DNA of 59,689 nt, taken from positions 1 through 59,689 of the forward strand of contig JAPPJI010000004.1 in the NCBI GenBank assembly GCA_028820405.1, read 5' to 3'. The stretch comes from Candidatus Kaiserbacteria bacterium (GTDB lineage: Bacteria; Patescibacteriota; Minisyncoccia; Phycocordibacterales; JABAAK01). The notes beneath the pieces were generated by a model. It saw nothing but the letters and a program-made list of their open reading frames with translations, was not told the DNA's origin and made no database searches. The number at the start of each line of letters is the position of its first letter. The first letter of the stretch is position 1. The translations under genes were made by a program, and so were the position numbers. This document shows, piece by piece, positions 51,895 through 54,693 of this stretch.

Positions 51895-52581
51895 ATGAAC
51901 ATGATTAATAATTTAGATTTACTTTCTACGAACACGCAGGAGGTACTGCAACTACCACTGATGTTTATTCCTCAGCTGGTTATTGCTCTCTTTATCCTCA
52001 TTGTTGGTTGGATTGTCGGGTGGCTTGTGGAGCGAGTGCTGATTTCAGTTTTCAGGGCGCTCCCGTTCTTTGATGAAGTGCTTCGAAATGTCGGTCTTGA
52101 AGAGGTGACGAAGCGAGCCGGGATGCGAATCAATCTCGGAAAATTCTTCGGCGTTGTCCTGAAGGTATTCATTATCTTCGCGTTTCTCGTTGCAGCAATT
52201 GATGTGCTCGGACTGCAGGCAGTGAACCAGTTCCTCATCTCTGAGGTGCTCGGCTACCTACCGAAAGTCATCTCCGCAGCATTTGTGGTTGTTATCGGTC
52301 TTGTTGTGGCTAACTTTGTCAGCAATATGGTTGCCGGTGCAAGTCGTGCAGTGAAAGTTGAAGGTGGCATTGCAACAAAGATCACGAAGTGGTCAATTGT
52401 TGTCCTCTCAGTCATCGTTGCTCTCGGTGAGCTCGGTATTGCGAATGAGATCATGCAGAGTGTGGTGGTTGGTATTATTGCCTCCATCTCCCTTGCACTT
52501 GGTTTGGCCTTCGGTCTCGGCGGTCAGCAGGCAGCGGCAGATTTCATCAATCGAGTGAAAGACGACATCGGAAGAGGTTAG
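51895..52581 (+). CDS. Mechanosensitive channel-like membrane protein (conserved TM helix repeat)
   Basis: VVGIIASISLALGLAFGLGGQQAAADFINRVKDDI. Confidence 0.8.
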   Translation: MNMINNLDLLSTNTQEVLQLPLMFIPQLVIALFILIVGWIVGWLVERVLISVFRALPFFDEVLRNVGLEEVTKRAGMRINLGKFFGVVLKVFIIFAFLVAAIDVLGLQAVNQFLISEVLGYLPKVISAAFVVVIGLVVANFVSNMVAGASRAVKVEGGIATKITKWSIVVLSVIVALGELGIANEIMQSVVVGIIASISLALGLAFGLGGQQAAADFINRVKDDIGRG

Positions 52582-52604
52582 TCGGAAACGTTTCTGATAT
52601 ATGC

Positions 52605-52630
52605 AAAACACCACCATTTGGTGGTGTTTT
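52605..52630 (+). terminator. Intrinsic terminator
   Basis: AAAACACCACCA-tt-TGGTGGTGTTTTG. Confidence 0.85.
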
Positions 52631-52721
52631 GTTTTTCTCAGCAAGTTTTTGATTTTGTGATATAGTTATAAAAGTATTCTTTCCCGGTCAAGGGTGACTC
52701 TATCCTGCAAGGAGGTTGAAA

Positions 52722-53105
52722 ATGACAAAGCCCGTATCGGTACTAATTAACGATCGTTATGAATATGCGGTGGAGGACTTTGAGATTCTCGGAGGAACTG
52801 TTACGGTGGTCACGGTTCCTCATGAAGACATCGTGGTGGAATTTGATATCCCCGAAGAAATTGCCCCTGAGGAATTTGCCGGGGCTGTTCGTGAACTCAA
52901 TCTCAATAGCAGAATGGGCATTCTGTTGTCAGGCAAGATGCCTGTGTGGGGGTGGGGGATAGTTGTGCATATCGTGCATGTCACCACCTACATCGCCATC
53001 CTAGATCCCTGCTTGGGAGGGTGTGTCGTCGTGATGGTGCGGCCCGATGAAAAACAAGTAAAAGTCGGTCAGGTTTTACGGATCCCAGGTCTTTCATTAG
53101 GCTGA
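52722..53105 (+). CDS. Csx3-like protein
   Basis: LLSGKMPVWGWGIVVHIVHVTTYIAILDPCLGGCVVVMVRP...VGQVLRI resembles the Csx3 core SGRxPIW...H...DPRLGGAVVVxSHxP..vGdvi; SD aaggagg upstream. Confidence 0.7.
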   Translation: MTKPVSVLINDRYEYAVEDFEILGGTVTVVTVPHEDIVVEFDIPEEIAPEEFAGAVRELNLNSRMGILLSGKMPVWGWGIVVHIVHVTTYIAILDPCLGGCVVVMVRPDEKQVKVGQVLRIPGLSLG

Positions 53106-53108
53106 CTG

Positions 53109-53147
53109 AAAAACCCGCCCTACCTGACTTATGGTATGGCGGGTTTT
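53109..53147 (+). terminator. Intrinsic terminator
   Basis: AAAACCCGCC...GGCGGGTTTT. Confidence 0.7.
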
Positions 53148-53241
53148 GTCGTGTTTGTGTAAAGTATAAGGAGAGATGCCGGTCGGCAATCTATTTTCTA
53201 ACCACAGCATCGCAAGGTGCAAAGATAGGGAGACCTGAAAA

Positions 53242-54693
53242 ATGGCAGAAAAGCTGATTGTAAGGGATCGACTTTTGAACAAAATCTTTTTTAAGGAGTT
53301 TGAGCACTCGTCGGGGTTTCGGATTGCCGCAATCTGCAATCGGCAGGTTGATCCGGAGACCTATGCCGCTATTGGCGCAAGTCTCTCCCGGAATCCGTCG
53401 CCGCTGAGGGCTCGGTTGGGGGAGCTCACTGATTTACAGAAAAAGAGGATCATCGGAAGGTATTTTAGGGATTATGGTCACAACTCCGTCGGAGAAATGG
53501 GACACCTCTTTCTTTCCGTTGAAGACATCAGCATGCTCGCTGCAATGCAGTTGATCAGCTTTGCCCGTTTCCAAGGTCAAGAAGCGTCAACGCGATACAT
53601 TGATTTCAGCGAGGTGCGGTATACGCTTCCTTCTCAGATGCAGGAAGATCAGGGTGTCCACGATCTTATGCATGCGTGGTTCGATCTGTACAGCGAGGTG
53701 AACGAACGGTTAGTTGAGCACTATGTTACCAAAGAGGGGATGAAGGAGGGACAGGCACGACCGAGAGCGTTTGATATTGCCGGAGCCTTTCTTCCTTCCG
53801 CGGCAAAAACGAGTGTCGTTATCGCGTGTGACATCAGGAACTTGATTGAGCATGCACGGAAGTTGCGGTCGTACGAAGGTGAGGAGATACAGCATATCAG
53901 CCGGCATCTCCTTGCAGTGATTGACCATCTCTGCCCGAACTCGGTTCGATCGATCGATATGGAAGAAAGTGTGTCGAATGATACCGATCGTCATGCTGTA
54001 TCTTTTTTTGAAGGAGAGTTACAGCGATCCTTTGAGGGTTTCAGAAATAGTGACCCAGAGCCCCGATGGACTCTTCGTCCGTGGGAACTGCGGCCAAAAC
54101 TGTGGGGGAAGACACGGGAGGAAATCATTCGCCTGCTCCGTAGTGAAGAGGTGGGGAGGTACGGTCAGGTTACCTGTGCGGGGAGAGTTTCATTCCGCTC
54201 ACTGAGGGAATTGATGCGTCACCGCCCGAACGTAAAGATCTGGTCGTTTGCATGGAGAGAGCGAGGGACGTCCTCTACGCCTGCGTGGAGAGATGAGTCG
54301 GAGACACTCTACCCACCCCAGTTTTGTCCCTGGTATCTTTTGAGAATTCCCGACACACATCAAGAGGGTATCCGTGAAAGAGTGCAGCAGCTCATGGCGA
54401 CAACCACTGCGATCGGCATTGAGTCATATGTGCGCACAGTCGGCAGGAAGCCGGCCGGCGTTCTCCTCCCCATGGGAGCGGAAGTGCTCTTTGAATTGAC
54501 CGCAACGCTTGATAAGTGGATGTACCTGCTCCACCTTCGATCCGGTCTCAAGGTGCACCCCGAGGTTCGTAATGTGATTCGTTCTTGGGGTCGGGAGATC
54601 TGTGACGGGCTCGGATTTGAGCCGGAGGACCTTGGTCTGAAGTATCTGGAGACACCTGAAACGGATTACGGGAGACGATCAAAAGATGCGTAA
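53242..54693 (+). CDS. Tandem ThyX-like (FAD-dependent thymidylate synthase family) protein
   Basis: Half 1: RDYGHNSVGEMGHLFLSVEDISMLAAMQLISFARFQGQEASTRYIDFS; half 2: FRSLRELMRHRPNVKIWSFAWRERG...DKWMYLLHLRSGLKVHPEVR. Confidence 0.75.
   Translation: MAEKLIVRDRLLNKIFFKEFEHSSGFRIAAICNRQVDPETYAAIGASLSRNPSPLRARLGELTDLQKKRIIGRYFRDYGHNSVGEMGHLFLSVEDISMLAAMQLISFARFQGQEASTRYIDFSEVRYTLPSQMQEDQGVHDLMHAWFDLYSEVNERLVEHYVTKEGMKEGQARPRAFDIAGAFLPSAAKTSVVIACDIRNLIEHARKLRSYEGEEIQHISRHLLAVIDHLCPNSVRSIDMEESVSNDTDRHAVSFFEGELQRSFEGFRNSDPEPRWTLRPWELRPKLWGKTREEIIRLLRSEEVGRYGQVTCAGRVSFRSLRELMRHRPNVKIWSFAWRERGTSSTPAWRDESETLYPPQFCPWYLLRIPDTHQEGIRERVQQLMATTTAIGIESYVRTVGRKPAGVLLPMGAEVLFELTATLDKWMYLLHLRSGLKVHPEVRNVIRSWGREICDGLGFEPEDLGLKYLETPETDYGRRSKDA

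Follow-up and report, generated by a model that had tools for sequence, protein, structure and literature searches.

The window, the whole 59,689-nucleotide stretch of Candidatus Kaiserbacteria DNA analyzed here, carries a gene for a 127-residue Csx3-fold protein, P0001 (52722–53105), identified by family profiles and a structure model; this gene and all of the window features described below lie on the + strand. Its reading frame is open throughout and begins with an ATG placed 6 bases after a Shine-Dalgarno sequence, AAGGAGG, read directly from the sequence (52709–52715). The upstream neighbor (51895–52581) encodes a mechanosensitive-channel TM-helix protein by Pfam profile (PF05552; MscS-like) and has no evident functional link to P0001. 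An intrinsic-terminator-like hairpin (52603–52632) followed by a T run, located by a sequence scan (together 52603–52636), sets the P0001 gene apart from it, and a second hairpin, AAAACCCGCC...GGCGGGTTTT (53109–53150; −28.1 kcal/mol, z = −5.4), directly 3′ of the stop codon, is a probable terminator. Because such hairpins stand both before and after it, the P0001 gene, lying between the MscS-like and ThyX-like genes, appears to be transcribed on its own; a simple scan found no sigma-70-like promoter for it. Codon usage of the gene falls at about the 4th percentile of its own genome, with ordinary GC3, a pattern that would suit recent import or weak constraint and is not decisive.

The downstream gene (53242–54693), already called ThyX-like in a first-pass annotation of this DNA, matches PF02511 in a Pfam profile search and encodes 483 residues with two PF02511 stretches in tandem. 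A genus mate (G194) has a ThyX-like copy that is 44–49% identical and sits in a different gene context. We set aside a functional link between P0001 and ThyX, given the terminator-like hairpins on both sides of the P0001 gene and given that in G194, which has no Csx3, the ThyX-like gene adjoins other genes.

P0001 Is a Csx3/Crn3 Homologue

The first-pass annotation had recognized the Csx3 core in the C-terminal half of P0001; the match covers more than the motif quoted there and persists outside DPxLGG. P0001 scores above the curated cut-offs of both family profiles, with 58.8 bits (E = 4.8e-16) against TIGR02579 (equivalog cut-off 55.4 bits) and 53.3 bits (E = 2.5e-14) against PF09620 (cut-off 21 bits), and it also matches the PADLOC Csx3 models (E = 2e-15). 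The Csx3 domain covers residues 38–121, approximately two thirds of the protein. In a phmmer search of the PDB, the Archaeoglobus fulgidus Csx3 AF_1864 (AfCsx3) was the sole credible match (E = 8e-8).

An AlphaFold model built with 15 relatives has a mean pLDDT of 82 and a pTM of 0.74, with very low confidence for the first 10 residues. When this model was compared to the PDB with Foldseek, the 13 best matches (E ≤ 0.001; best E = 8e-7) were all AfCsx3, followed by the cA4 effector Cat1 (E = 4e-3), so that the predicted fold is that of AfCsx3 and not a different one. Residues 16–31 form an extra N-terminal beta hairpin, where nearly all of the aligned relatives have gaps. P0001 is thus a true Csx3/Crn3 homologue by both profile and fold.

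The Metal-Site Residues Are Kept and Two cA4-Contacting Residues Are Replaced

Csx3 is normally an enzyme that switches off CRISPR alarm signals, and AfCsx3 was originally described as an RNA exonuclease dependent on Mn. In the Csx3 dimer the presumed metal-site histidines occupy one face and the aspartate the other, and stacking of dimers is needed to bring them together. In the AfCsx3-cA4 structure, a phosphate is held by a bidentate contact from R71 and a 2′-OH is bonded by H80; the H60A and D69A mutants are inactive, whereas activity is strongly reduced in R71A and H80A, and the same work describes both R71 and H80 as absolutely conserved across Csx3 (PMC7371418).

Alignments, read with the residue roles assigned in that work, show that P0001 keeps both presumed metal-site histidines, H57 (His83, codon 52968–52970) and the essential H60 (His86, 52977–52979), and the essential catalytic aspartate D69 (Asp95, 53004–53006). 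Two other residues expected of a Crn3 cA4 ring nuclease are missing: R71 is replaced by Cys97 (TGC, 53010–53012) and H80 by Arg107 (CGG, 53040–53042). The two oddities that had been read from the sequence, a cysteine for the arginine of DPRLGG and the loss of the histidine after VVV, therefore both hold in the alignments; with VVV aligned, Arg107 is followed by two extra residues and no histidine lies nearby. Of the neighboring positions, S44 and G45 are retained as S70 and G71, and R46 has become Lys72.

Eleven positions are invariant across 16 Csx3 proteins including P0001 (G66, S70, G71, P74, W76, H83, H86, D95, P96, V103, and G116), and these span both half-sites. By comparison, the H80 histidine is kept in all 28 of the other Csx3 sequences aligned, and position 71 is Arg or Lys in the same 28 except for two AAA-Csx3 fusions (G428 and G488). 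A frame error as the source of the unusual residues was rejected, the P0001 frame being coherent throughout. The R71 change amounts to a single C-to-T step (CGC to TGC, base 53010), at which a consensus error is possible; at H80, where two residues are also added, the difference goes beyond one base.

The Assembly Holds No Detected Type III CRISPR System or Cyclase

The observation that no CRISPR locus occurs in the 60 kb of the window can be extended to the whole assembly (636,599 bases in 27 contigs; completeness 91.7%, so that roughly 8% of the sequence may lie outside it). We found no match there to the Cas10 palm domain (PF22335), a model that a very divergent Cas10 could escape, and none to the RAMP protein family (PF03787). 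There was also no CRISPR array in these 636,599 bases; candidates on contigs C9, C19, and C26 were rejected as short tandem repeats without differing spacers. Neither a SMODS cyclase nor a DAC domain was found in the assembly, and a Cas10 match was absent from all eight genomes of the GTDB family. The genome has one Csx3 copy. No P-loop NTPase is fused to or adjoins P0001, whose neighbors are the MscS-like and ThyX-like genes, and tblastn with two Csx3-AAA partner queries returned nothing credible from its own genome. Elsewhere in the assembly, a MotB/OmpA-like and MotA-like pair with an HNH-like protein after it (contig C26, 46111–48310) resembles a Zorya-type defense system, as judged by eye only.

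Csx3 in the Patescibacteria

Csx3 is rare in Patescibacteria (about 1.5–2.6% of sampled genomes), occurring in 4/197 genomes of the order, 6/384 of the class (with TIGR02579), and 10/380 of the phylum, and P0001 is the sole copy in its genus and family. Single-protein scans of the genome_contigs and viral_contigs sets found no close relative, nor did tblastn against plasmids and phages. A close-relative search across 397 genomes of the order returned G133 alone, with a frameshifted copy. As a search query alignment A2 was too varied and A3 was usable. No relative with the same Cys/Arg pair emerged from the contig, viral, and order-wide searches.

A Cas10 match is present in only one (G711) of the 17 Csx3-bearing genomes of the phylum, the genome of P0001 included; Csx3 in Patescibacteria is thus mostly CRISPR-free, with 16 of the 17 genomes tested lacking such a match. 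Many of the other Csx3 proteins in the phylum group apart in a branch marked by the motif NGPASLPVA, Lys at position 71, and a retained H80, and several of these adjoin a P-loop NTPase that corresponds to the AAA part of Csx3-AAA in PADLOC. P0001 lies outside this branch; the tree places it, without support, close to canonical Csx3 and a single copy from G538, as a singleton whose branch is the longest of all (3.3 changes per column) and whose identity to any other row is at most 35%. The earlier suggestion of a non-CRISPR branch is borne out in that most of the phylum's Csx3 genes lie in genomes without a Cas10 match, but P0001 is not part of the main CRISPR-free branch.

Several other arrangements were seen in the phylum. 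In three genomes (G133, G051, and G245; loci L017, L018, and L025), all without a Cas10 match, genes for Csx3, a Csx3-AAA-type NTPase, bpMoxR, and vWA are clustered in what is a CRISPR-free, conflict-system-like locus; Csx3 is of the NGPASLPVA type in L018 and L025, and the L018 cluster includes an HD protein. The two AAA-Csx3 fusions noted above (L022 in G488 and L023 in G428) have lost D69 and R71 (QPG for DPR) while keeping H60 and H80, and from these residues their Csx3 domains are likely non-catalytic. An 8001-base contig of G296 (contig 15; L020/L090) holds a frameshifted canonical Csx3 together with type IV Cas7, Cas5, and Cas8 (Csf2, Csf3, and Csf1) and a DndC/BrxP-like protein of the PAPS-reductase type.

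Set beside known systems, P0001 is closest to AF_1864, with which it shares the fold, domain length, H57, H60, D69, S44-G45, the PxW motif, and a stand-alone, single-domain form; it differs in R71 (Cys), H80 (Arg), R46 (Lys), the extra N-terminal hairpin, and a genome without type III CRISPR. The Csx3-AAA and AAA-Csx3 systems (PADLOC PDLC01045, PDLC01515, and PDLC01059/C3a67) likewise contain a Csx3 domain and occur in this phylum too, for the most part where the genome has no Cas10 match, but their P-loop NTPase is adjoining or fused, whereas P0001 has no such partner and carries other residue changes. A Csx3 domain was also noted outside CRISPR in MoxR-vWA conflict systems by Kaur et al. 2020 (PMC7159879); the MoxR, vWA, and propeller neighbors of those systems are absent from the surroundings of P0001.

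A Possible Role outside CRISPR

Because the genome has no detected CRISPR system and the two residues that grip cA4 are both changed, P0001 is probably no longer a cA4 off-switch of CRISPR. That both presumed metal-site histidines and the aspartate are retained points to continued use of the metal-dependent site formed by stacking. Our leading interpretation, held tentatively and at slightly less than an even chance, is that P0001, a strongly diverged, stand-alone protein of the Csx3 fold, works outside CRISPR and binds or slowly cleaves a nucleotide other than cA4. Under this interpretation P0001 would still form the Csx3 dimer, and dimers would stack head to tail so that an Asp face and a His face make up one metal-dependent site. 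That site would have changed in its preferred ligand and would show little ring-nuclease activity on cA4; its substrate in the cell, bound or slowly hydrolyzed, may be another small oligonucleotide, a cyclic nucleotide, or short RNA 3′ ends, and P0001 would not serve as a CRISPR off-switch. A more far-reaching version, in which a Csx3-fold metal-dependent phosphodiesterase or receptor acts wholly outside CRISPR on a non-cA4 ligand, with an unrecognized nucleotide signal or an RNA-processing role in a reduced Patescibacteria genome, we regard as rather unlikely. Three points weigh against the leading interpretation: no relative with the Cys/Arg pair was found, which leaves no means of showing that the altered site is under selection; the very long branch and low-percentile codon usage also fit decay or recent import; and neither ligand nor cyclase was found.

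The likeliest of three rivals is decay. P0001 could be the functionless remnant of an imported ring nuclease, with its frame still open and its active site eroding, as the absence of a second copy in the genus or family, the branch length, the atypical codon usage, the loss of two site residues, and the missing CRISPR partner would all support. An intact frame, a strong Shine-Dalgarno sequence, and an isolated transcription unit weigh against it, however, and random loss would not favor the retention of every structural and essential catalytic position; we consider decay doubtful, on a par with the far-reaching version above. Marginally less likely still is a working cA4 ring nuclease, no more than slowed by R71C and H80R, that gives protection from cA4 of another source, such as a type III system carried by a transient plasmid, by a host cell, or by sequence missing from the assembly. 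In its favor, the residues that cannot be lost without abolishing activity, H60 and D69, are kept along with the metal-site H57; R71A and H80A were reported as highly reduced, not dead (PMC7371418); and intact stand-alone Csx3 on viral contigs makes a role outside type III loci plausible. Against it, both cA4-holding residues have changed together, and none of the eight family genomes has a Cas10 match. Since the substitutions affect the residues that hold cA4, and no source of cA4 is known in the cell, we prefer a switch in ligand to a cA4 off-switch that remains active. Finally, P0001 might be a non-catalytic binding or scaffold protein with an unrecognized partner, like the degenerate AAA-fused Csx3 domains of the same phylum, whose persistence in G428 and G488 without D69 and R71 indicates that the fold can be reused without catalysis; P0001, however, keeps the catalytic aspartate and both histidines, and the tblastn search recovered no AAA partner from its genome, which makes this the least probable of the readings considered.

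Csx3 is regarded as an accessory of CRISPR, and annotation by family models would name this gene a CRISPR-associated ring nuclease, a label at odds with a CRISPR-free genome and an altered cA4 grip. If functional, P0001 would be a naturally occurring double variant at the cA4 site with its metal site kept, and would offer a test of which residues set substrate choice; with most of the phylum's Csx3 found without Cas10, the role of the family there needs rethinking. The Csx3 fold, the family, and its occurrence outside CRISPR are already known. What is new is a natural R71C/H80R variant in a CRISPR-free genome, whose interest stays modest as long as no ligand is demonstrated.

Csx3 on Viral Contigs

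A survey of 28,114 phage genomes describes AcrIII-1, Csx20, and Csx16 in phages and makes no mention of Crn3 (PMC12409355). Five IMG/VR viral contigs (L093–L097) carry a stand-alone Csx3 with all of the catalytic residues present, and judged by these residues they may be phage-borne cA4 ring nucleases. L093 also encodes a terminase large subunit and PhoH, L094 RecT and SSB, and L095 UvsX and a primase; in L097 (7890–8908), Csx3 adjoins a Csx3-AAA-type NTPase as a separate gene.
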